Shown here: positions 8,383 through 19,184 of the stretch, in pieces
How positions within the stretch are numbered: position 1 is the stretch's first letter
How the letters are laid out: every line of letters starts with the position of its first letter
Origin: Methylobacterium oryzae
GTDB lineage: Bacteria; Pseudomonadota; Alphaproteobacteria; Rhizobiales; Beijerinckiaceae
Direction: 5' to 3'
DNA length: 64,000 bases
NCBI RefSeq assembly: GCF_021398735.1
Contig: NZ_CP090349.1
Span: 2,052,501 to 2,116,500 of the forward strand
Translations under genes and position numbers: made by a program
The notes under the pieces: model-generated
What the model was told of the DNA's origin: nothing
What the model saw: the letters and a program-made list of their open reading frames with translations, nothing else
Databases searched by the model: none

Positions 8383-8954
8383 GCGGCGGCCCTCGTCTCG
8401 ACCGCGACGCGGCGGTGCGGTCCCCAGACCTCGATCGTCCCCCCGAAACATGCCGCGAAGCCCGGGAAGGCGGCATCCACGATCCGGTCCCGCGCCAGCG
8501 CGGCGGGGTCGACGCCCGGCGGCGCATCGACGGATTTCACCAGGACGCAGCGCTCCGCCCCGACCCGCGCGGCGAGCCAGAGGGCGAGGCTGTCCGAGGT
8601 GACGTCCCAGGTCTCCGGGATGTCCGGGTGGCCGGCTCGGAGAGCGCGCGGGTTCCAGACCCGAATCCGCGCGGGCGCCGTCTCAGCCCAGGGCTCCAGG
8701 CTCTGCACGAGCCGCGGCTCGATCCCGCGGAAGATGCCGGCCGCGTCGCTCATGGCGTCGAGCGCCCGGCGATGGGCCTCGGCGTCGCCGAAGCGCTCCC
8801 GCGCCTGCGCGGCCCGGACGGCGTCCGCGAAGGCGCCGCCGCCCGGCACCACGATGCAGCGCCCGTGCGTGCCGTCGCCGATCGCTTCCAGCAGGGCGCG
8901 GCGGCGATGCGGATCCGCCTCGAGGCTGCCGCCGATCTTGATGACGCTCGTCAC
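8379..8954 (-). CDS. mfnE: MfnE-like amino-acid-kinase-family protein (furan phosphate kinase)
   Basis: A 191-residue member of the aspartokinase/uridylate-kinase fold, with IKIGGSLE at the N-terminus, VVPGGGAFADAV as the nucleotide loop and CVLVKSVDAPPG near the C-terminus. Archaeal MfnE phosphorylates aminomethylfuran methyl phosphate in methanofuran synthesis; the methylotroph homologue would serve methylofuran. Start GTG 8954 overlaps the mfnB stop by 4 nt, and its own stop overlaps the next start by 4 nt. The function is by homology and context. Confidence 0.78.
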   Translation of the reverse strand: MTSVIKIGGSLEADPHRRRALLEAIGDGTHGRCIVVPGGGAFADAVRAAQARERFGDAEAHRRALDAMSDAAGIFRGIEPRLVQSLEPWAETAPARIRVWNPRALRAGHPDIPETWDVTSDSLALWLAARVGAERCVLVKSVDAPPGVDPAALARDRIVDAAFPGFAACFGGTIEVWGPHRRVAVETRAAA

Positions 8955-9652
8955 GCCGCGTCCTGCCGGCTCGGCCGCAGGGCGCGCAGGGCCTCGGCCA
9001 CGCGCAGCGGATCGATGCCGTTGCGGCGGTCGAAGTCCCGGCACAGGCCGCCGCGGAAGCCGAGGTAATCCGGCCGATGCGCGCAGAGGCCGGGGATGTC
9101 GATGACCCGCAGCGACCCGGCGAGGCCGCTCATCAGGCCGTTCGCCCGGCAGGCGGTGGTGAAGGCCGAGAGGTCCGAGGGCGCGGCGAGGTCGGGCAGG
9201 CGGGCGCCGGTCTTGCCGGCGGTGTCGATCATGGCGCCGGCAAAGCCGGCCGCCGCCAGGGCGGGCACATGCGGGGCCGCCGGCCCGTCCTCGGCGAACA
9301 GCACGGCGATCAGCCGGCCCGGCGCGGCCGCGACGCGATCGGCCAGCGTCGCCGCGTCCCGGATCTCGGCAGGACGTAGACCGACCTTCACCCAGTCGAC
9401 GCCGGTCCGGGCCAGGGCGGCGACGGATCCGGCCGCCGGATCGGCCACCGCGCTCGTCGCGGCACCGCCGGACACGCGGGCGACGATCTCCCGCACGACG
9501 TCCTCGTCCAGGGCGCCGAGCGCCCCGCGCTCCGGGTCCTTGGCGTCGATCAGGTCGGCGCCGGCGAGGCGGGCTGCCTCGGCCTCGGCCGGATCGCGAA
9601 CGCTGACGAGGAGCCGGGGCAGGGGGTCTTGCTGGATGGTGGACGCGGGCAC
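8951..9652 (-). CDS. mfnB: MfnB-like (5-formylfuran-3-yl)methyl phosphate synthase
   Basis: A 233-residue TIM-barrel protein of the DUF556 / MfnB family. The N-terminal LLVSVRDPAEAEAARLAGAD followed by LIDAKDPERGALGA matches archaeal MfnB, with Lys38 in DAKDP as the expected Schiff-base lysine. MfnB condenses two glyceraldehyde-3-phosphates into the furan precursor of methanofuran; in methylotrophs it would supply methylofuran for the formyltransferase/hydrolase complex. It starts at GTG 9652, 27 nt after the preceding gene stops. Confidence 0.85.
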   Translation of the reverse strand: MPASTIQQDPLPRLLVSVRDPAEAEAARLAGADLIDAKDPERGALGALDEDVVREIVARVSGGAATSAVADPAAGSVAALARTGVDWVKVGLRPAEIRDAATLADRVAAAPGRLIAVLFAEDGPAAPHVPALAAAGFAGAMIDTAGKTGARLPDLAAPSDLSAFTTACRANGLMSGLAGSLRVIDIPGLCAHRPDYLGFRGGLCRDFDRRNGIDPLRVAEALRALRPSRQDAA

Positions 9653-9679
9653 GAAACACTCGAACTTGAACGGGCCGTC

Positions 9680-10204
9680 TCAGGACTTCCCGGGCAGCGG
9701 CTCGGCGAGCAGGCGGTTCTTGACCACCCAACGCATCGCATGCGCCCAGGTATCGTCGGTGTCGGCCCGGATCGTCACCTGCCCGCCGCGCACCACCTTG
9801 CCGGTATCGGCTTCGGCGATCGCGACGCTCAGGTTGAAGATCTGGCCGGACCCCTTCTCCACATAACCGGTCACGACGAGGTCCGCACCCAGGCTCTTGG
9901 CGATGTCGGCCGCGCAGCCGTTGCATTTGTAGAGCGGCCCCTCCTTGGCCACGACGTCGGCCTTGGGCGCGGTATCGACGATCTCCAGACCGGCCTTGTC
10001 GCGCAGGGCGTTGCGCAACTCGTCGGTGACGAGGGCGAGCTTCCGGGCGTCCACCGGCCGCGTCCGGGATCCGTAGGCGGCACCGGGATCGAACAGCTCG
10101 ACCGGGAAGACGGCGGCCTTCTCGGCGGCGCCGGCCGCACCGGGCAGGGTGGTCCACAGGACGACGCCGCAGGCGAGCGCGGCGCGGAGAGACGTGTGGC
10201 GCAT
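9680..10204 (-). CDS. DUF2380/DUF3280-type exported protein
   Basis: A 174-residue protein with a signal peptide (residues 1 to about 28, ending AAGAAEK). The mature part reads AVFPVELFDPGAA, LALVTDELRNAL, then DLVVTGYVEKGSGQIFNLSV, which fits the DUF2380/DUF3280 group of periplasmic proteins with a TolB-N-like fold. Two cysteines (CNGC) are present. It is the first gene of the minus-strand cofactor operon and shares its promoter region with lutA. Role unknown. Confidence 0.75.
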   Translation of the reverse strand: MRHTSLRAALACGVVLWTTLPGAAGAAEKAAVFPVELFDPGAAYGSRTRPVDARKLALVTDELRNALRDKAGLEIVDTAPKADVVAKEGPLYKCNGCAADIAKSLGADLVVTGYVEKGSGQIFNLSVAIAEADTGKVVRGGQVTIRADTDDTWAHAMRWVVKNRLLAEPLPGKS

Positions 10205-10276
10205 CGGCGGGAGCTTCCTCTCGAGGCGTTCGACCGCCCGAGGCGGCGGCATCGTTCCCGCCATAGGTCGGGCGAA

Positions 10277-10293
10277 GGGACAATTTGGCAATG
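10277..10293 (-). promoter_or_regulatory. Candidate operator, site 1 (lutA / cofactor operon)
   Basis: On the minus strand this reads CATTGCCAAATTGTCCC. It matches the site upstream of lutH at 15815-15831 in 16 of 17 positions. It lies 73 nt before the minus-strand operon start and about 98 nt before lutA, so it could control both. Its TTGCCA may also serve as a -35 element for the minus operon. Confidence 0.55.
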
Positions 10294-10390
10294 TACTTCC
10301 GCGCCCGCCTATCCCACGACGGTAACGTGAACGTCGGGACGAGACGCCGCGGTTGAGCGGCCTGAGCGGAAGCTGATAGAGGCCGCGCGC

Positions 10391-11662
10391 ATGCACCATC
10401 CTGCACCCGACACGGCCCTCCGGCACAAGACGCGCCCGTCCTGGCTGCGCGCGGCCGCCGTCGCGCTCGCCATCGCCCCGGCGGCGGCGCGGGCCGAGGA
10501 CCCGGCGCCGGCCGCGGCGGCGCAGCCGGCCCAGGCCGCCGCTCCGCAGGCGCTCGAGACCCATGTCGGCCTGATCTACCGGCCGCAGTCCGCCCCGTCC
10601 TCGTACGATGCCGAGGCGGCGCCGGAGGACGAGGGCCTGGCCGGCGCCAAGATGGGCATCGCCGACAACAACACCACCGGCCGCTTCACCAAGCAGACCT
10701 ACGTCCTGGACGAAGTCGCCCTGACCGACGACAAGCCGGACGCCGTGGCGGCGGCCAAGGAGCTGATCGGCAAGGGCGTGCGCTACTTGGTCCTGGCGCT
10801 CCCCGCCGACGCGGTTCTGGCCGTGGCCGACGCCGTCAAGGACACGGGCGCGGTCGTGCTCAACGCGGGGGCGCCCGACGATCGTCTGCGCGGCGCCGAG
10901 TGCCGCGCCAACGTGTTCCACATCCTGCCGTCGCGGGCGATGCTCACCGACGCCCTGGCGCAGTACCTGACCGTGATGCGCTGGCGGAAGCTCTTCCTGA
11001 TCGTCGGCCCGACCGACGCCGACAAGGCCTACGCCGACGCGATGCGCAACTCGGCGCGGAAGTTCGCGCTGAAGATCACCGCCGAGAAGCCCTGGACCTT
11101 CGGCCCCCTCGCCAAGGCGCGCGGCGACACGCCGACCCGCGCCGAGGCGATGGTCTTCACCCGGGGCCTCGACTACGACATGGCCATCGTGGCCGACGAG
11201 GAGGGCGACTGGGGCGACTACGTGCCCTACCGCACCGTCGATCCGCGCCCCGTCGGCGGCACGCAGGCGCTGACGCCGACGACCTGGTCCCCCGTGCTGG
11301 AGACCTGGGGCGCCGCGCAGGCCCAGAACCGGTTCCGGCGGCTCGCCTCCCGGCTGATGCGCCCGCTGGACTATCAGGTCTGGGCCGCGGTGCGGACGGT
11401 GGGCGAGGCCGTGACGGCCAAGAAGACCAACGACCCGGCCGTGATCGCCCCGTACCTCGTCGAGCCCGCCTTCACGCTGCCGGCCTACAAGGGCGTGCCG
11501 CTGAGCTTCCGGCCCTGGGACCACCAGCTCCGGCAGGCGATCATCGTGGTACAGCCGAAGGCGCTGGTCTCCGTCGCGCCGGAGCAGGGTTTCCTGCACC
11601 AGCGCACGCCCCTCGACACGCTGGGCGTCGACCTCCCCGAGACCACCTGCAAGTTCAAGTGA
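10391..11662 (+). CDS. lutA: Periplasmic ABC-type binding protein of the lanthanide-uptake cluster (LutA-like)
   Basis: A 423-residue exported protein. The signal peptide ends around ARAED, followed by an Ala/Pro/Gln linker to about residue 57. The body is a two-lobe periplasmic binding fold of the PQQ-alcohol-dehydrogenase-associated substrate-binding family: TKQTYVLDEVAL, then LVLALPADAVLAVADAVKDT, then RKLFLIVGPTDADKAYADAM. In M. extorquens the gene at this position (lutA) is needed for lanthanide transport into the cytoplasm. The assignment rests on family plus the exact eight-gene order here. ATG 10391 is used. Confidence 0.85.
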   Translation: MHHPAPDTALRHKTRPSWLRAAAVALAIAPAAARAEDPAPAAAAQPAQAAAPQALETHVGLIYRPQSAPSSYDAEAAPEDEGLAGAKMGIADNNTTGRFTKQTYVLDEVALTDDKPDAVAAAKELIGKGVRYLVLALPADAVLAVADAVKDTGAVVLNAGAPDDRLRGAECRANVFHILPSRAMLTDALAQYLTVMRWRKLFLIVGPTDADKAYADAMRNSARKFALKITAEKPWTFGPLAKARGDTPTRAEAMVFTRGLDYDMAIVADEEGDWGDYVPYRTVDPRPVGGTQALTPTTWSPVLETWGAAQAQNRFRRLASRLMRPLDYQVWAAVRTVGEAVTAKKTNDPAVIAPYLVEPAFTLPAYKGVPLSFRPWDHQLRQAIIVVQPKALVSVAPEQGFLHQRTPLDTLGVDLPETTCKFK

Positions 11663-11783
11663 ACCCGCGGCCTGCGGCGATGGCGAGCGGCCAAGGCCCT
11701 CGCAACGCGCGGAAATCGCACTACAAACGTCCCCCGAGAACGTCCGCCCAGGGCGCCGGGCCGTCGCAAGGGAAGGAAACCGT

Positions 11784-12767
11784 ATGAGCCGCCGCGTCGA
11801 GGCATGTCTGAGTGGGGTCGCCCTCGGTGCGTGGTTCGCCCTGTGCGGGCCGGCCGCCGCCTTCACCGCCTACGTGACGAACGAGAAGGGCAACTCGGTC
11901 AGCGTCATCGACACCAACACGATGGCGGTGACGGCGACGTGGAAGGTCGGGCGGCGCCCGCGCGGTGTGACCGTCTCCAAGGATGGCAAGGAGCTGTTCG
12001 TCTGCGCGAGCGACGACGACCGGATCGACGTGCTCGACACCAGTTCCGGAAAGGTGGTGCGCTCGCTGCGCTCCGGGCCGGATCCGGAGCAGTTCATCCT
12101 CGACGCCTCCGGGAACCCGCTCTACGTGGCCAACGAGGACGACAGCCAGGTCACGATCATCGACATCGAGAAGAACAAGGTGCTCGCCGAGGTACCGGTG
12201 GGCGTCGAGCCGGAGGGCATGGGCCTGTCGCCGGACGGGAAGATCCTCGTCAACACCTCCGAGACGACCAACATGGCCCACTTCATCGATACGAAGACAT
12301 TCCAGGTCATCGACAACGTGCTGGTCGACGCCCGGCCGCGCTTCGCCGAGTTCACCGCCGACGGCAAGTTCCTGTGGGTCTCGGCGGAGGTCGGCGGCAC
12401 GGTGAGCGTGATCGACGTCGCCCAGCGCCGCGTGATCAGGAAGATCACCTTCAAGATCCCGGGCGTGAACGACGAGGCGATCCAGCCGGTGGGCATCCGG
12501 ATCACCAAGGACGGATCCAAGGCCTTCGTGGCCCTCGGGCCGGCGAACCGCGTCGCCGTGATCGACGCCAAGACCTACGCGGTCGAGAAGTATCTGCCGG
12601 TCGGCCAGCGGGTCTGGCAGCTCGCCTTCACGCCTGACCAGAAGCAGCTCTTCACCACGAACGGCACCTCTAACGACGTCTCGGTGATCGACGTGGCCGC
12701 CGAGAAGGTGGTGAAGAGCATCCCGGTCGGGCTCCTGCCTTGGGGCGTGGCGATCTCGCCGAACTGA
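11784..12767 (+). CDS. lutB: YVTN beta-propeller protein of the lut cluster (LutB-like)
   Basis: A 327-residue exported propeller. The signal peptide runs to about residue 27 (GPAAAF). About seven repeats follow, such as AYVTNEKGNSVSVIDTNT and LYVANEDDSQVTIIDIEK. It belongs to the PQQ-dependent-catabolism-associated beta-propeller family. It lies 121 nt after lutA, has a ribosome binding site GGAAGGAAA, and probably acts in the periplasm with the binding protein. No direct metal-binding residues can be assigned. Confidence 0.82.
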   Translation: MSRRVEACLSGVALGAWFALCGPAAAFTAYVTNEKGNSVSVIDTNTMAVTATWKVGRRPRGVTVSKDGKELFVCASDDDRIDVLDTSSGKVVRSLRSGPDPEQFILDASGNPLYVANEDDSQVTIIDIEKNKVLAEVPVGVEPEGMGLSPDGKILVNTSETTNMAHFIDTKTFQVIDNVLVDARPRFAEFTADGKFLWVSAEVGGTVSVIDVAQRRVIRKITFKIPGVNDEAIQPVGIRITKDGSKAFVALGPANRVAVIDAKTYAVEKYLPVGQRVWQLAFTPDQKQLFTTNGTSNDVSVIDVAAEKVVKSIPVGLLPWGVAISPN

Positions 12768-12798
12768 TCCGCGCGACCTCCGGGCGCCGAGCGAGGAC

Positions 12799-12817
12799 GG
12801 CCGCGCGCGACGCGGCC
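12799..12817 (+). other. Intercistronic hairpin between lutB and lutC
   Basis: Perfect 7-bp stem GGCCGCG / CGCGGCC with loop CGCGA, 18 nt before the lutC start. No U-tract. It may slow or process the message between lutB and lutC. Confidence 0.35.
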
Positions 12818-12834
12818 CTAGGGTGGAACACGAC

Positions 12835-13269
12835 ATGACACGCATGTTTCGAACGGCGGCCCTCGGCTTGGCAGGGCTGCTCGCCGCGGCACCGGCCAGT
12901 GCCCTCGACCTGACCAAGAAGCGGGAGAACCTGCCCGACCTCGTCCTGGGCGACGATCAGGGCAACGACTTCGTGGTCGAGAACAAGGACATCACGCTGG
13001 AATCCGGCAAGGCCTACCGGCTACGGATCGTCGCCAAGGGGCGCCAGGAATACAAATTCTACGCGCCGGAGTTCTTCCGCTACATCTGGTTCAACCAGAT
13101 CGTGATCGAGCACAAGGAGATCCACGGCGGCGGCCCACCCGATCACCTGGAGTTCGACGATCCCGGTGAGATCGCCATCGAGTTCGTCGCGATCAAGCCC
13201 GGCACCTACACGTGGTCGGTGCACGGCCTGGAGTCCAAGGGCATGACCGGCACGCTGACGGTGAAGTGA
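12835..13269 (+). CDS. lutC: Cupredoxin-like exported protein of the lut cluster (LutC-like)
   Basis: A 144-residue protein with a signal peptide to about residue 25 (PASALD). The mature domain is cupredoxin-like: FYAPEFFRYIWFNQIVI, then AIEFVAIKPGTYTWSVHG, then GMTGTLTV. The closing strand keeps the Met of the usual Cys-His-Met copper loop (SKGMTG), but the Cys position is Ser/Val, so a type-1 copper site is unlikely. The many Asp/Glu residues could bind another metal; that is inference. Its TGA shares a base with the lutD ATG (TGATG). Confidence 0.78.
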   Translation: MTRMFRTAALGLAGLLAAAPASALDLTKKRENLPDLVLGDDQGNDFVVENKDITLESGKAYRLRIVAKGRQEYKFYAPEFFRYIWFNQIVIEHKEIHGGGPPDHLEFDDPGEIAIEFVAIKPGTYTWSVHGLESKGMTGTLTVK

Positions 13270-13511
13270 TGCGCATCCTCCTCCTCTCCGCCTGCCTCCT
13301 CGCCGCCGGCCCGGCCCTCGCGGCCGACGACGCCTCGTCCTGCGCCGAGGGCATCACGATGATCCGCGACGCCCTCGCCCTGAACCCGCCCGAGACGGCG
13401 GTGCCGAAGCTCAGGGAGGCCCTGCGGGTGGCCGAGCGGGAGCAGAAGGAGGGCGAGTTCGACGAGTGCCTCGACGCCGTCTCCGACGCCCGGAAGGTCC
13501 TGGGCCGATGA
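13269..13511 (+). CDS. lutD: Small exported two-cysteine protein (LutD-like)
   Basis: An 80-residue protein with a signal peptide (MRILLLSACLLAAGPALA). The mature part has one Cys just after cleavage (DDASSCAEG) and one near the end (EFDECLDAV), separated by two amphipathic helices. A helical hairpin held by a disulfide is plausible. It resembles the protein at 18831-19184 in Cys placement and C-terminal helix. No function is known. It overlaps lutC by 1 nt and lutE by 4 nt. Confidence 0.72.
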   Translation: MRILLLSACLLAAGPALAADDASSCAEGITMIRDALALNPPETAVPKLREALRVAEREQKEGEFDECLDAVSDARKVLGR

Positions 13512-14257
13512 GCGCGACCGAGCCGGCGGCCCTCCTGATCGAGCATGTCGGCCACAAGTTCGGCGCCCGCGCCGCGCTGAACGACGTCTCGATCACGGTG
13601 GAGCGTGGCCACTTCGCCGCGCTGCTGGGGCCGAACGGCGCCGGCAAGACGACGCTGTTCTCGGTTATCACCCGGCTCTACAACAACCAGACCGGGCGGG
13701 TTTCGATCTTCGGCCACGCCCTGGATCGCGAGCCGTCCCGGGCGCTGGCGCGGCTCGGCGTCGTGTTCCAGGCCCGCACCCTCGACACCGATCTCACCGT
13801 CGAGCAGAATCTCCTCTACCACGCGAGCCTGCACGGCATCGCCCGCGGCGCCGCCAAGGTCCGTGTGGGCGAGCTGCTCGACCGCGTCGGACTCGCGGAC
13901 CGCCGCCACGACAAGGTGCGCACACTCTCGGGCGGCCAGTCGCGCCGGATCGAGATCGCCCGCTCGCTGATCCACCGCCCGGACCTGCTGCTCCTCGACG
14001 AGCCCACCGTCGGCCTCGACCTCGAGTCGCGGGCCGACATCGTGGCGATCGTCCGCGCCCTGGTGCGGGAGGAGGGCTTGTCGGTGCTCTGGGCGACCCA
14101 CATCTTCGAGGAGATCGCGGACGACGACGACGCCGTGGTGCTGCACCGGGGCCGGATCGTCGCCCGGGGCCGGGCCGGCGGGATCGGCAGGCCCGGCGAG
14201 GCCCTCGCCGACGCGTTCCGCCGCTTGGTCGCCGAGCCGGGGAGGGCGGCGGCATGA
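13508..14257 (+). CDS. lutE: ABC transporter ATP-binding protein (LutE-like)
   Basis: A 249-residue ATPase with Walker A GPNGAGKT, Q-loop VVFQARTLD, signature LSGGQSRR, Walker B LLLLDEP and the H-loop LWATHIFEE. It belongs to the ATPase family of PQQ-dependent alcohol dehydrogenase ABC systems. ATG 13508 overlaps the lutD stop (ATGA) and its own stop overlaps lutF, so D-E-F are translationally coupled. It should drive the LutF permease at the inner membrane. Confidence 0.9.
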   Translation: MSATEPAALLIEHVGHKFGARAALNDVSITVERGHFAALLGPNGAGKTTLFSVITRLYNNQTGRVSIFGHALDREPSRALARLGVVFQARTLDTDLTVEQNLLYHASLHGIARGAAKVRVGELLDRVGLADRRHDKVRTLSGGQSRRIEIARSLIHRPDLLLLDEPTVGLDLESRADIVAIVRALVREEGLSVLWATHIFEEIADDDDAVVLHRGRIVARGRAGGIGRPGEALADAFRRLVAEPGRAAA

Positions 14258-15147
14258 CGAACCCGACGCCCCTCGCCACCCGGATCGGCACCGCCCCGCC
14301 GCGCGGCCAGGCCGCGCGGATCGGCCGCCTCGATGCGGTCGGCTACCTGATCTGCCTCGGCGGCATCGTCCGCCGCGAGCTGCTGCGATTCTTCAATCAG
14401 AAGGAGCGGTTCTTCTCGGCGCTGGTCCGGCCGCTGGTCTGGCTGTTCATCTTCGCGGCCGGCTTCCGCAACACACTCGGCGTGTCCATCGAGCCGCCCT
14501 ACCAGACCTACGTGCTCTACGAGGTCTACGTGGTGCCGGGCCTCGCCGTGATGATCCAGCTGTTCAACGGCATGCAATCGTCGCTGTCCATGGTCTACGA
14601 CCGCGAGGTCGGCTCGATGAAGGTGCTGCTCACCTCGCCCTATCCGCGGTGGCTGCTCCTGCTCGCCAAGCTGATCGCCGGCGTCGCCGTGTCGATCGTG
14701 CAGGCCTACGCGTTCCTGGCCGTGGCGTATTTCTGGGAGAGCGACATCCCGTGGCTGGGCTACCTCGCGGCCCTGCCGGCCTTCCTGGCCACGGGGCTGA
14801 TGCTGGGGGCGATCGGGCTGTTCCTGTCCTCGCTGGTCCGCCAGCTCGAGAACTTCGCCAGCGTGATGAACTTCGTGATCTTCCCGATGTTCTTCGCCTC
14901 GTCGGCCCTCTACCCCCTGTGGCGGATCCGGGAATCCTCCGAGACCCTCTACTGGATCTGCGAGCTGAACCCGTTCAGCCACGCGGTCCAGCTCGTCCGC
15001 TACGCCCTCTACCTCCAGTTCGAGCCGGTCGCCTGCGCCGTGGTGCTGGGCGTGGGGCTCGCCTTCTTCGGCATGGCGGTGGTCGCCTACGACCCCGGCC
15101 GCGGCATCATGGCCCGGCGCGGCGGCCCGGCCGGCGACAACACCTGA
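14254..15147 (+). CDS. lutF: ABC-2 type permease (LutF-like)
   Basis: A 297-residue membrane protein with about six transmembrane spans, starting after the amphipathic RRELLRFFNQKERFFSALVR. The ABC-2 permease signature region GIMVYDREVGSMKVLLTSP-like (here MVYDREVGSMKVLLTSPYP) is intact. Partner of the ATPase encoded just upstream with a 4-nt overlap. ABC-2 permeases are more often exporters, so the transport direction of this system is not obvious from sequence; lut genetics in M. extorquens supports uptake. Confidence 0.88.
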   Translation: MTNPTPLATRIGTAPPRGQAARIGRLDAVGYLICLGGIVRRELLRFFNQKERFFSALVRPLVWLFIFAAGFRNTLGVSIEPPYQTYVLYEVYVVPGLAVMIQLFNGMQSSLSMVYDREVGSMKVLLTSPYPRWLLLLAKLIAGVAVSIVQAYAFLAVAYFWESDIPWLGYLAALPAFLATGLMLGAIGLFLSSLVRQLENFASVMNFVIFPMFFASSALYPLWRIRESSETLYWICELNPFSHAVQLVRYALYLQFEPVACAVVLGVGLAFFGMAVVAYDPGRGIMARRGGPAGDNT

Positions 15148-15160
15148 TGGAGTCCGCCCA

Positions 15161-15799
15161 ATGAACGTCCTCCTGACCCGCATCGTCGGCCCGGCGCTCG
15201 GGCTCGTGATCCTCGCCGGTCCAGCCCTGGCGCAGCCGAAACAGGATCCGGATTGGCCCTGCGTCCAGCGCAAGGTCGCCACACTCAGTCCCGGCCAGTT
15301 CTGGACCGGCCCCGACGTGGAGGCCGCCGGCGACTGGGGCAGCGACAACGACGCCGCCGTCCTGGCGCAGAAGATCGCGTCGCGCCGCACCGACCTCTCG
15401 CAGGTCGGCCCGCTCCTCGACACGTTCGCGGAGAAGTTCGGCTCCGACAAGGACGCGAAGGACAAGGCCCTGACCCGCGTCTACTCTGGCGTGTTCGAGG
15501 TGCTGAACGGCGAGCGCAACAAGGTGGTCGGCGGCATCGCGCGCTACGCGCAGGGCCAGCGCCGTATGGCCGAGCGGATCCGCGACGAGGCCGACAAGAT
15601 CAGTCAGGTGAAGGACGCGCCGAGCGCCTCCGACGCCACGGAACTCCCGAAAGACCAGTCCGAGCTGGAGACGAAGTTCGCCTGGGATCGCCGGATCTTT
15701 CAGGAGCGGAGCCAGTCGCTGACCTATGTCTGCGAGGTTCCGCAGCTGCTCGAGCAGCGGCTCGGCGAGATCGCGCGCCTGATTCAGGCACGGCTCTGA
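15161..15799 (+). CDS. lutG: Exported helical protein of the lut cluster (LutG-like)
   Basis: A 212-residue protein with a signal peptide (to about GPALAQ). The mature part is mostly helical and charged, with two cysteines far apart (DWPCVQRK and TYVCEV). Acidic clusters (GDWGSDNDAA, FGSDKDAKDKAL) are visible but do not form EF-hand loops. I know no biochemical role. It starts 13 nt after lutF and is followed by a 247-nt AT-richer gap before the receptor gene. Confidence 0.72.
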   Translation: MNVLLTRIVGPALGLVILAGPALAQPKQDPDWPCVQRKVATLSPGQFWTGPDVEAAGDWGSDNDAAVLAQKIASRRTDLSQVGPLLDTFAEKFGSDKDAKDKALTRVYSGVFEVLNGERNKVVGGIARYAQGQRRMAERIRDEADKISQVKDAPSASDATELPKDQSELETKFAWDRRIFQERSQSLTYVCEVPQLLEQRLGEIARLIQARL

Positions 15800-15814
15800 C
15801 CACGCGCCGGCGAT

Positions 15815-15831
15815 CATTGCCAAATTATCCC
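15815..15831 (+). promoter_or_regulatory. Candidate operator, site 2a (lutH upstream)
   Basis: CATTGCCAAATTATCCC, 16 of 17 identical to the minus-strand site at 10277-10293. It lies in the 247-nt gap before lutH, which is clearly richer in A/T than the coding DNA around it. Confidence 0.55.
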
Positions 15832-15837
15832 GGGTAG

Positions 15838-15852
15838 ATTGCCGAAATATCC
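15838..15852 (+). promoter_or_regulatory. Candidate operator, site 2b (lutH upstream)
   Basis: ATTGCCGAAATATCC, 13 of 15 identical to the core of site 2a and starting exactly 22 bp after it (15816 to 15838), about two helical turns. The tandem would let two regulator dimers bind the same DNA face. Confidence 0.5.
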
Positions 15853-16046
15853 TTAAGTGGCTGAAATCTTTACCGAAACTGTTGCTGTTTAACCACGTGG
15901 CGGCGGCTTCGCTCGGCGCAGGCCGGAAATGAGGCCGAAACGCGTCTCACGTGTTCTTGAACCAATTGTGCGCGTTCCCGGCACCCTCCAAGAAAGACCC
16001 AAGCTCGGCAGTCACGAGCACGTGTTTGGGTTTGAGGGGGTTGGGG

Positions 16047-18617
16047 ATGTCACTTCGGGCGCTTCGGAGCGGCCTGGTCGCGTCGGCATCGGTTCTCGCC
16101 GGGACGGTTCTCCCGGCGGCGGTGCAGGCTCAGCAATCGGTCACGCTCGGCGAGATCAGCGTCGTCTCGACGTCGCCGGTCGGGTCCGGCGGCGGAAATT
16201 CGAGCCAGGCGCAGATCTTCAACGGTCCCGGACCGGTGCCGCCGGCCGGCTCCCTGGGACCGAGCACCGGCGTGCGGCTGCGCGGCTCCGAGCAGCCGCT
16301 CTACAAGATCCCCAGCACCGTCGAATCGGTCACGGCGAGCGATATCACGATCGATCGCGCCAGCGACAACCTGACCACGACGCTGGCCCGGCGCACGCCC
16401 GGCATCAACGTCTCCGACTCGCAGGGCAACAACAACCGCGTCGACATCACCTACCGCGGCTTCACGGCCTCGCCCGTGCAGGGCGTGCCGCAGGGCCTCG
16501 CCGTGTATCAGAATGGCGTGCGCATCAACGAGGCCTTCGGCGACATCGTCAACTTCGACCTGATCCCGCCGCAGGCGATCCAGCGCATCGACGTGGTCAC
16601 CGGCAACCCGGTCTTCGGCCTCAACGCGCTCGGAGGCGCGGTCAACATCCAGATGAAGAACGGCTTCACCTGGCAGGGCACCGAGATCTCGGCCTGGGGC
16701 GGCTCGGACGCGCGCACCGCCGGCTATCTCGAGTACGGTAAGGTCTCCGGCCCGTGGAGCGTCTACTTCACCGGCGACGGCCTGAACGACCGCGGCTGGC
16801 GCTACGAGAGCCCGAGCACGATCGGCCGCCTCTACGGTGACATCGGCTACCGCTCGCAGGATGCGGAGTTCCACCTGATCGGGCTCGCCGCCCGCAGCTT
16901 CTTCGGCGCGGCCGCGGCCACGCCGGTGGACTTCACCCACCGCGACCCGCGGGCGATCTTCACCTTCCCGCAGACCACCACCACCGAGGTCGGCACGCTC
17001 CAGCTGACCGGCCGGGTCGACATCTCGCCGACCTGGGATCTCGCCGGCAACGCCTATTTCCGCCGCTTCAGCCAGACCTACGTCGACGGCAACGACGGCA
17101 ACTTCGAGAACTGCAGCACGCGCTCCAGCTTCCGCGGCAACCTCTGCTTCGAGGATGACGGGTTCAGCCCGGCGGCCGGACAGTCGCAGCTCGCCTTCCG
17201 CAACCAGTTCCTGATCCTGGGGCAGCAGAACCAGCGCATCCCGTTCCGGGCGGGCATCCCGTACGGCACGCTTGACACGACCCGAACGGAAGCCACCGGC
17301 TTCGGCGGCTCGCTCCAGGCCGCCAATCGCGACCGGATCTTCGGCCTGTCCAACACCTTCGTGGTCGGCGGCAGCATCGACGCGGCCAATTACGGCTTCA
17401 AGTCGTCCAGCACGCTCGGCGTCATCAACCCGGATCTGTCGATCACGACCAACCCGAGCAACCCGTTCTACGGCAACGTCCCGGGCCTCGGCACGCCGCA
17501 GCTGCGGACCGCCGGCGCGCTCGGCATCGCGCCGAGCTCGGTCAACGGCTCCAACCTCTACATGGGCCTCTACACCCTCGACACGCTCGACGTGACCGAC
17601 CGGCTGTCGCTGACCGCCGGCGCCCGGCTCAACTTCGCGCGCATCCAGAGCGAGGACCTGACCGGCTTCTCGCCGGACGTAACCGGCACGCACTACTTCA
17701 ACAAGATCAACCCGGTCGCCGGCCTGACCTACCGGTTCTTCGACGCGCTGAACCTCTACGGCAGCTACTCGGAGTCGAACCGCGCCCCGACCCCGCTGGA
17801 GCTGGCCTGCGCCAACCCGGACCGGCCGTGCCTGCTGCCGAACTCGCTGGTGGCCGACCCACCGCTCAAGCAGGTCACCGGGCGGACCTACGAGGTCGGC
17901 TTCCGCGGCCAGCTGCCGAACACCTATGACGGCGGCATCATCACCTACAAGATCGGCGCCTTCCGCACCGATCTCGCCAACGACATCCTGTCGCTGGCCA
18001 CCCCCGGCAACACCGCCCGCGCCTACTTCGTCAACGTGCCGTCGACGCAGCGGCAGGGCATCGAGGTCGGCGGCGAGTACACGGCCGATTACCTGCGGGT
18101 CTACGCCAACTACGCGCTGGTCGACGCGACCTTCCAGTTCAACGGCACCCTGTCGTCGCCCAACAACCCGCTCGCGGATGACGGCGCGATCCAGGTCCGC
18201 AAGGGCAACGTCGTGCCGCTGGTGCCGACCCACCAGATCAAGGCCGGGTTCGACTACTTCGTCACGCCCAACTGGCAGTTCGGCCTCTACCTCCAGGCCT
18301 TCTCCTCGTCCTACTTCCGCGGCGACGAGTCGAACCTGAACCGCAAGCTGCCGCCCTACTACGTTCTGAACTTCCAGACGAAGTATCAGGTGACGAAGAA
18401 CCTCGAGGTCTTCGGCCTCATCACCAACCTGACCAACAACCGCTACACCACGTTCGGCACCTACGCCGAGCCGGGCGCGGTGGCGGGCAACCTGCGGATC
18501 AGCGATCCGCGGACCACGACCCTGGCGCAGCCCTTCTCGGTCTACGCCGGCATCCGCTACGCCTTCGGCGCCGATCCGGTGCCGATGTCGCCGGAGCCGA
18601 TCATCCGGAAGTACTGA
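16047..18617 (+). CDS. lutH: TonB-dependent outer-membrane receptor (LutH-like)
   Basis: An 856-residue receptor. A signal peptide (MSLRALRSGLVASASVLAGT, cut near VQAQQ) is followed by a TonB-box-like TLGEISVVS, an extended Gly/Ser/Pro linker, a plug domain (GINVSDSQGNNNRVDITYRG, VTGNPVFGLNALGGAVNIQM) and a long beta-barrel with alternating aromatic strands ending in an aromatic residue. In M. extorquens the receptor at this place imports lanthanides, presumably as a chelate. ATG 16047 is preferred over upstream GTG 15951 because the signal peptide begins there. Confidence 0.87.
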   Translation: MSLRALRSGLVASASVLAGTVLPAAVQAQQSVTLGEISVVSTSPVGSGGGNSSQAQIFNGPGPVPPAGSLGPSTGVRLRGSEQPLYKIPSTVESVTASDITIDRASDNLTTTLARRTPGINVSDSQGNNNRVDITYRGFTASPVQGVPQGLAVYQNGVRINEAFGDIVNFDLIPPQAIQRIDVVTGNPVFGLNALGGAVNIQMKNGFTWQGTEISAWGGSDARTAGYLEYGKVSGPWSVYFTGDGLNDRGWRYESPSTIGRLYGDIGYRSQDAEFHLIGLAARSFFGAAAATPVDFTHRDPRAIFTFPQTTTTEVGTLQLTGRVDISPTWDLAGNAYFRRFSQTYVDGNDGNFENCSTRSSFRGNLCFEDDGFSPAAGQSQLAFRNQFLILGQQNQRIPFRAGIPYGTLDTTRTEATGFGGSLQAANRDRIFGLSNTFVVGGSIDAANYGFKSSSTLGVINPDLSITTNPSNPFYGNVPGLGTPQLRTAGALGIAPSSVNGSNLYMGLYTLDTLDVTDRLSLTAGARLNFARIQSEDLTGFSPDVTGTHYFNKINPVAGLTYRFFDALNLYGSYSESNRAPTPLELACANPDRPCLLPNSLVADPPLKQVTGRTYEVGFRGQLPNTYDGGIITYKIGAFRTDLANDILSLATPGNTARAYFVNVPSTQRQGIEVGGEYTADYLRVYANYALVDATFQFNGTLSSPNNPLADDGAIQVRKGNVVPLVPTHQIKAGFDYFVTPNWQFGLYLQAFSSSYFRGDESNLNRKLPPYYVLNFQTKYQVTKNLEVFGLITNLTNNRYTTFGTYAEPGAVAGNLRISDPRTTTLAQPFSVYAGIRYAFGADPVPMSPEPIIRKY

Positions 18618-18638
18618 TCCGTCAGCGGCGTCGAGAGG

Positions 18639-18678
18639 CGGGCGCCTCCCGCGGCCAGAAGGCCGCGCGGGGCGCCCG
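18639..18678 (+). terminator. Hairpin downstream of lutH
   Basis: An 18-nt arm pair (18639-18656 and 18661-18678) with two mismatches and an AGAA tetraloop, 21 nt after the lutH stop. Very stable; only a weak T-run follows. It probably ends or stabilises the lut message. Confidence 0.55.
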
Positions 18679-18830
18679 TCGCGTTTCCGCACTACCGCAT
18701 GCGGCCTCCTGTCTCGGGAACGGGCCCGTTCGCCCGGCGTCTCCCCGGTAGCCGCACCGGCGCATTACCGTCCGCTCATGCATGAGGGGTCGGCGCCGGC
18801 CGCATCCCGACACCGTGGAGCCTCGTCCCG

Positions 18831-19184
18831 ATGATCATGCGTTTCGCCGTTGCAGCCCTGGCCCTGGCGGCCGCTACGCCAGCCCTGGCGACCCCGTGCG
18901 CCGACGAGGTCGACACGCTGCAGCGGCGGCTGGACAGCGCCGGCGCGGCCTCGGTGACCGGCACGACGCCGCCCGGCGGCACCACGTCCTCGAACTCGCC
19001 CAAGGCGCTCGACACGCCGCCAGCGCTCACCAAGTCGGACGCCGCCGTGAAGCCCACCGCCGCGGGCGTCGAGGAAGCCAAGAAGCTGGTCGCGCTGGCG
19101 CGCCAGCAGGACAAGGGCGGCGACGCCCAGGGCTGCCGCGACACGATCCTGAAGGCCAAGGAGAAGGCCGGCGCGCTGCCGTAG
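18831..19184 (+). CDS. Small exported two-cysteine protein, LutD-like
   Basis: A 117-residue protein; the signal peptide ends about TPALATP. It has one Cys right after cleavage (TPCADEV) and one near the end (AQGCRDTI). A Gly/Thr/Ser/Pro-rich linker lies between residues 40 and 75, and a C-terminal helix EEAKKLVALARQQDKGGD follows. The pattern parallels LutD. It occupies the place after lutH where M. extorquens encodes lanmodulin, but no EF-hand is present. ATG 18837 is an alternative start. Function unknown. Confidence 0.65.
   Translation: MIMRFAVAALALAAATPALATPCADEVDTLQRRLDSAGAASVTGTTPPGGTTSSNSPKALDTPPALTKSDAAVKPTAAGVEEAKKLVALARQQDKGGDAQGCRDTILKAKEKAGALP

Follow-up and report, generated by a model that had tools for sequence, protein, structure and literature searches.

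The 64,000-nucleotide stretch of Methylobacterium oryzae DNA analysed here (contig NZ_CP090349.1, positions 2,052,501 to 2,116,500; "the window" in what follows) carries a lanthanide-uptake (lut) cluster whose promoters share a short sequence element, the box NTTGCC[G/A]AATNNTCCCG. Comparative sequence analysis indicates that a single transcription regulator of the Methylobacterium calcium/lanthanide switch probably binds this box. The sequence recurs far above chance at several unlinked promoters, in the genome of origin, across the genus, in lut clusters and upstream of genes on which the search matrix had not been trained. A sequence-only reading of the window had proposed one regulator for lutA, the one-carbon (C1) cofactor operon and the receptor gene lutH. 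The kind of element appears to have been recognized correctly, but its reach was underestimated: boxes are also found at mxaF, xoxF1, lanM and a second tonB_Ln gene.

The box in the window and in lut clusters

The 17-nt pattern CATTGCCAAATTRTCCC is matched exactly at positions 10277-10293 (minus strand) and 15815-15831 (plus strand), at the two ends of the cluster as the sequence-only reading had described, and nowhere else in the window with up to three mismatches. In 100 dinucleotide shuffles the mean was 0.04 matches and no shuffle had two. The third copy, GATTGCCGAAATATCC at 15837-15852 (+), had been taken for a degenerate one. It is instead a second box, a direct repeat of the preceding one at a distance of 22 bp. 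The matrix trained on receptor upstream regions (see below) gives the three window copies scores of 26.3, 26.0 and 23.5, and the next-best place in the 64 kb scores 10.7.

The box ATTGCCAAATTGTCCCTT (10275..10292, minus strand; matrix score 23.5) is located in the gap between two divergent transcriptional units. On one side is lutA (10391..11662, +), which encodes the substrate-binding protein of the pyrroloquinoline quinone (PQQ)-alcohol-dehydrogenase ATP-binding cassette (ABC) system (TIGR03863, 473 bits). On the other side the DUF3280-methofuran operon starts with the open reading frame (ORF) of a DUF3280 protein (9680..10204, −; PF11684, E 2.9e-37), followed by the 4-HFC-P synthase of the methofuran pathway (8951..9649, −; PF04476, E 5.6e-50). 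The box lies ~70 bp upstream of the minus-strand ATG (10204) of the first ORF, and judged by this position it may also act on the C1-cofactor operon. In the receptor promoter, box 1 (ATTGCCAAATTATCCCGG, 15816..15833, +; score 26.3) matches the motif found de novo in receptor upstream regions and is followed 22 bp later by its direct repeat, box 2 (ATTGCCGAAATATCCTTA, 15838..15855, +; score 26.0). The TonB-dependent receptor (16047..18617, +), earlier named lutH, is only 36-41% identical to the receptor of Methylorubrum lut clusters and is therefore better named TonB_Ln type, a type name inferred from papers. The names TonB_Ln and LutH follow PMC9301485 and PMC9260416 and are applied here provisionally.

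Conservation was investigated in 80 loci of named records carrying lutA, plus the window, using the receptor upstream region where present. An expectation-maximization search of 52 non-redundant receptor upstream regions, with no motif supplied, returned TTGCCGAATNATCCCG (score 538; shuffled input, 53). These 52 regions (TonB_Ln and LutH types) served to train the matrix, which makes the count at receptor genes circular but not those at mxaF, xoxF1, lanM and lutA. When the 81 loci (1.447 Mb) were scanned at threshold 14, a box preceded the receptor gene in 56 of 56 loci (the training set) and was also found at lanM in 21 of the 22 cases where this gene is inside the lut cluster, and in the lutA gap in 38 of 80 loci. 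The reversed matrix had a single match. The counts at the receptor and at lutA support a conserved cis element. The 29 other matches include boxes farther from lutA in four loci scored as misses (L056, L059, L065, L068), a receptor pair in L075, where the gene start was unscored, and a pair in L094 near the locus end that probably likewise belongs to a receptor. The conserved motif spans ~15 bp, its orientation to the gene varies, and it occurs in tandem or inverted copies; among 54 non-redundant receptor promoters, a fraction of 0.41 has a second box (score >10) at +23, and a fraction of 0.39 has one at +22.

The boxes at lutA vary by clade. A de novo search upstream of lutA returned a different top motif, the 11-bp direct repeat CTTAT-N6-CTTAT, which we take to resemble an OmpR-type site. 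It is found at −20 to −75 of lutA (L066, L076, L088 and others; Methylorubrum and other clades). The repeat was not found upstream of the window lutA and was set aside.

Boxes at unlinked promoters

The exact 15-mer ATTGCCNAANTNTCC occurs at three places in the 6.65-Mb genome, all of them in the window, and its reversed-pattern control at none. With up to two mismatches specificity is gone (109 places versus 63 for the control) and the loose pattern was dropped as a genome-wide tool. Twenty own-genome stretches around its matches were fetched, three of which are at tonB_Ln-2, xoxF1 and mxaF. Among the 16 such stretches with ORFs that were examined, eight matches are inside an ORF according to a codon-composition rule and the rest at unidentified genes. 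The exact 16-mer TTGCCNAATNATCCCG is found in the same genome at three places, mxaF, the receptor and xoxF1 (control 0).

Across 111 genomes of the genus the 15-mer was present at 109 places among the matches listed, in 64 genomes (control 3). Sixty of these 109 are upstream of lutA (19), a TonB_Ln-type (12) or LutH-type (2) receptor, lanM (17), mxaF (6) or xoxF1 (4); homology to fetched genes and genome coordinates served to assign the places, and 15 of the lutA cases were placed from coordinates only. Outside the genus the 16-mer was found in 6 of 232 genomes of a family sample (control 1), versus 8 of 16 inside. The box is largely a feature of Methylobacterium as the tool defines this genus, Methylorubrum included.

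The receptor-trained matrix was then applied at threshold 12 to genes outside its training set, with as much as 700 bp of upstream sequence for each of the 30 closest homologues per query (59 genomes). At mxaF, a box was found in 28 of 30 cases, all forward and at −250 to −268 from the first residue of the query. At xoxF1 the count was 24 of 30, with 18 boxes in reverse orientation, near −620 and −525. For lanM, 15 of the 30 loci were left out: they had been attributed to the adjacent receptor gene and offered no upstream sequence that could be scored. Of the remaining 15, 11 have a box, and one scored as a miss (L276) concerns a gene beside which the box scores 28.9 in L163. Ten shuffles of the 73.5 kb searched gave 22 matches, 2.2 each. 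Methanol dehydrogenase subunit 1 and XoxF were identified by solved relatives, and lanmodulin and PqqB by NCBIfam equivalogs. In the genome of the window (G000), boxes are present at lutA, the window receptor (two), mxaF (277020), xoxF1 (4412037 and 4412133) and one of the two lanM genes (5458026). Genomes that lack mxaF (G027, G071, G090) retain the xoxF1 boxes.

The promoters of mxaF have a regular geometry. When they are aligned on the box, the best AAGACA-like hexamer starts exactly 39 bp from the box start in 21 of 24, which places the box 21 bp upstream of this element. The hexamer 18 bp beyond it is TAGAAA in 10 of the 24, TAAAAC in seven and AATAAT in three, the genome of the window being among the latter. 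AAGACA and TAGAAA are presumably the −35 and −10 of the AM1 mxaF promoter. Of 55 receptor promoters, 36 have their best AAGTCA-like hexamer at offset 39 or 40. The window has there the −35-like element AAGTGG (15855..15860, +), 39 bp from the start of box 1 and sharing one base with box 2. The receptor promoter thus resembles the mxaF layout, except that a second box occupies the space in between. Of the six 16-mer matches outside the genus, one is also at mxaF, in a genome of another genus (G329, locus L333) whose MxaF is 83% identical. Its box scores 28.1 and is followed by AAGACG at the same offset of 39. The place and orientation of the box vary at lanM and xoxF1: xoxF1 boxes are usually reverse and far upstream, those of lanM either adjoin the start in reverse orientation or face forward, alone or paired with an inverted copy, and inverted pairs are found at some loci of both genes.

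The predicted regulator and competing explanations

The target genes are reported to respond to lanthanides. According to these studies, lanthanum represses the receptor gene (PMC7391723, PMC9301485), induces lanM (PMC9260416), represses mxa and raises xox (PMC5784242). The sites, their conservation, the genes they mark and the mxaF geometry are directly observed; that a single protein binds the boxes, which protein it is and with what sign it acts at each promoter we infer. Promoters that most published work finds to be on without lanthanide (mxaF and the receptor) have one or two boxes, as a rule forward, ~21 bp upstream of an AAG[A/T]C-like −35, a position suited to an activator. At the promoters reported as lanthanide-induced (xoxF1 and lanM) the other places and orientations would fit repression or another activation geometry. 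The three window copies would place the lanthanide ABC transporter and the receptor under the switch, and, judging from position, the methofuran operon as well. In its most complete form, which we advance tentatively and at somewhat less than an even chance, one lanthanide-controlled response regulator would activate mxaF and the receptor gene and repress xoxF1 and lanM through the same box. The whole switch, including uptake, storage and cofactor supply, would then be encoded by nothing but the position and orientation of the box.

MxcQE, MxbDM and MxaB, which control mxa and xox in Methylobacterium, act on the same genes and with the same logic towards lanthanides (PMC5784242, PMC9260416, PMC11845868). 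The accessible parts of these three papers give no binding site and the link of these proteins to the box is putative. In strain 22A, tonB_Ln adjoins mxcQE, and lanthanum no longer induces lanM when mxcQE is missing but still does so when mxbD is missing (PMC9260416). Beside the receptor gene of genome G005 there is a kinase-like ORF (by eye) followed by a Response_reg + GerE regulator, which is MxcE-like. The genome of the window encodes two relatives of this regulator. One, at 60%, is next to a kinase-like ORF (5228321); the other, at 47% and termed MxaB-like, is ~11 kb from mxaF (264186). The names MxcE-like and MxaB-like are provisional. A search with the MxaB-like protein retrieved an MxcE-like protein at least 50% identical in all 22 genomes chosen from the 111, which include box carriers without mxaF such as G027, G071 and G090. 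An MxaB-like copy ~10-12 kb from mxaF was found in 10 of the 22, all of them with mxaF. Genomes without mxaF have only a ~50-55% paralogue, with the exception of G051 (59%), and in G024 and G106 mxaF is present with no MxaB-like copy on the same contig. An MxcE-like regulator is thus present in all 22 genomes tested, while mxaF-less genomes with boxes have no MxaB-like copy at an mxa cluster, and MxaB as sole regulator was set aside. MxcE or a relative is the first candidate because of the 22A lanM genetics, the receptor neighbourhood and the occurrence of MxcE-like proteins in the 22 genomes; MxcE or a NarL/LuxR-type paralogue is accordingly the likeliest cognate protein, with a probability that we would still place a little under one half. 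MxbM comes next, as an unlikely though reasonable candidate. It seems to be needed to hold xox down without lanthanide, a result that also fits a dual role (PMC11845868). As a side observation, the MxcE-like gene is ~1.5-2 kb from a TonB_Ln-type receptor gene in G031, G105, G106 and G051, as reported for 22A.

Several observations weigh against the box being the site of one lanthanide-switch regulator. No box is found near the own mxcE-like or mxaB-like genes. In the test on unseen genes, the reversed matrix gave nine matches in 73.5 kb, above the 2.2 of the shuffles, boxes were missing at mxaF in 2 of 30 cases, xoxF1 in 6 of 30 and lanM in 4 of 15, and four of the six forward xoxF1 matches are weak (12.9-15.8). 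In the own genome, the box of the second TonB_Ln receptor (G000:C1:331063) is weak (13.3), and the sole match near the other lanM gene (367379-367759) scores 12.2 and is 1.6 kb off. The lutA gene has no matrix match in 42 of 80 loci and is therefore the less conserved target; outside the genus, 22 of 25 receptor upstream regions have no match (3 of 25 do). Among the matches listed for the genus, 49 of 109 places are at other genes, eight of them MucR-type genes, and the regulon is therefore wider or mixed. The receptor box is reverse in G004 and G005, and the single box has no dyad symmetry by eye, which is unusual for a NarL-type dimer. Earlier work cited in PMC11317620 found lutH unresponsive to soluble LaCl3, and according to data cited in PMC9260416 lanthanum raised the 22A receptor gene 1.3-fold.

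It is quite possible, if on balance doubtful, that several paralogous regulators (MxcE, MxaB, MxbM and others) recognize one common box, each at other genes. Both the MxcE-like and the MxaB-like proteins are NarL/LuxR-type regulators related to each other (47-60% identity to the query), and boxes are retained in mxaF-less genomes that have no MxaB-like copy at an mxa cluster. A single universal paralogue would, however, suffice. Unlikely, yet to be taken seriously, is that the box belongs to a general methylotrophy activator of growth on methanol or C1 compounds and that another site or protein accounts for the response to lanthanides. Boxes at mxaF and xoxF1, in the methofuran operon gap and, in one genome (L176), beside pqqB would suit such an activator, as would the rise of both mxa and xox on methanol (PMC5784242). 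However, the receptor and lanM, whose role concerns lanthanides and not methanol as such, are among the most regular targets, and the boxes persist in genomes without mxaF. A plain −35 element TTGCC[A/G] of a shared promoter type, the rest being chance, is very improbable. Read by hand in the minus direction, the lutA-gap box does show TTGCCA, then 17 bp, then ACCTAT, and may overlap the −35 of the divergent operon. Conservation nevertheless extends over ~15 bp, well past the hexamer as the sequence-only reading had noticed in doubting this alternative, the copies are tandem, inverted or reverse with no fixed orientation, mxaF has a separate AAGACA-like element 21 bp downstream, and no sigma-70-like site was found in 15790-16060; the bare −35 element was rejected. 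Conservation of the lut boxes by common descent without function is barely credible: the loci are related and lutA boxes differ by clade, but a matrix not trained on them finds the same box at unlinked, non-homologous genes, and the two receptor types that have it in common are only 36-41% identical.

Compared with known systems, the predicted lanthanide-switch site recalls PedS2/PedR2 of Pseudomonas putida, in which a LuxR-type response regulator represses the calcium enzyme and induces the lanthanide enzyme (PMC12997753); that system concerns other genes in another genus. It also shares with Fur-type uptake regulons that a metal-uptake receptor is shut down when its metal is plentiful. The box does not resemble the consensus of the Fur palindrome, for which no search was made, and methanol dehydrogenases are not known as typical Fur targets. 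No report of the site was found in the open-access literature, a scope that leaves most subscription papers and all preprints outside. In 2022 a paper named the ligands of MxcQE and MxbDM, and the genes under their control, as points still to be established (PMC9260416). The lanthanide switch is known genetically, and a 15-18 bp site together with a list of promoters makes its regulon directly testable. The site would also give a handle on lanthanide-responsive promoters for biotechnology.

Receptor leader and other genes beside boxes

The receptor leader is ~200 nt long and conserved. RNAalifold predicted no pairs for the whole leader in 21 TonB_Ln-type sequences and, for 13 LutH-type leaders, 18 pairs with a covariation energy that is nearly nil (−0.08). 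Rfam had three matches in 9600-19000, all below the gathering score and none in the receptor leader. The idea of an RNA leader was rejected on these grounds, and only a small hairpin is supported. This hairpin (GCTCG-loop-CGAGC, 16003..16019, +), 27 nt before the ATG, has 86.7% of cells paired in 21 sequences and 12 double-changed cells, a result reached in 0 of 500 shuffles.

Boxes were also noticed beside genes of other kinds. In L176 an exact box is ~270 bp upstream of pqqB, where pqqA would be expected. MucR-type genes adjoin exact boxes in eight genomes (L009, L135, L139, L148, L152, L160, L166, L188), the box of L152 being intragenic. Near xoxF1 of the own genome (L316:4731-5069), and in L016, a ~95-aa protein with no Pfam family has a divergent box pair 21 bp apart at its start. 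A ~160-aa protein, likewise with no Pfam family and alike by eye in L124 and L186, has boxes 23 bp apart in front. Further boxes are found near a protein family, defined by homology, with a Hint-like stretch recognized by eye (L010, L018, L140, L157) and near a glycosyltransferase-like family (L137, L151, L154), assigned by PF13524 for L154 and by eye for the others.

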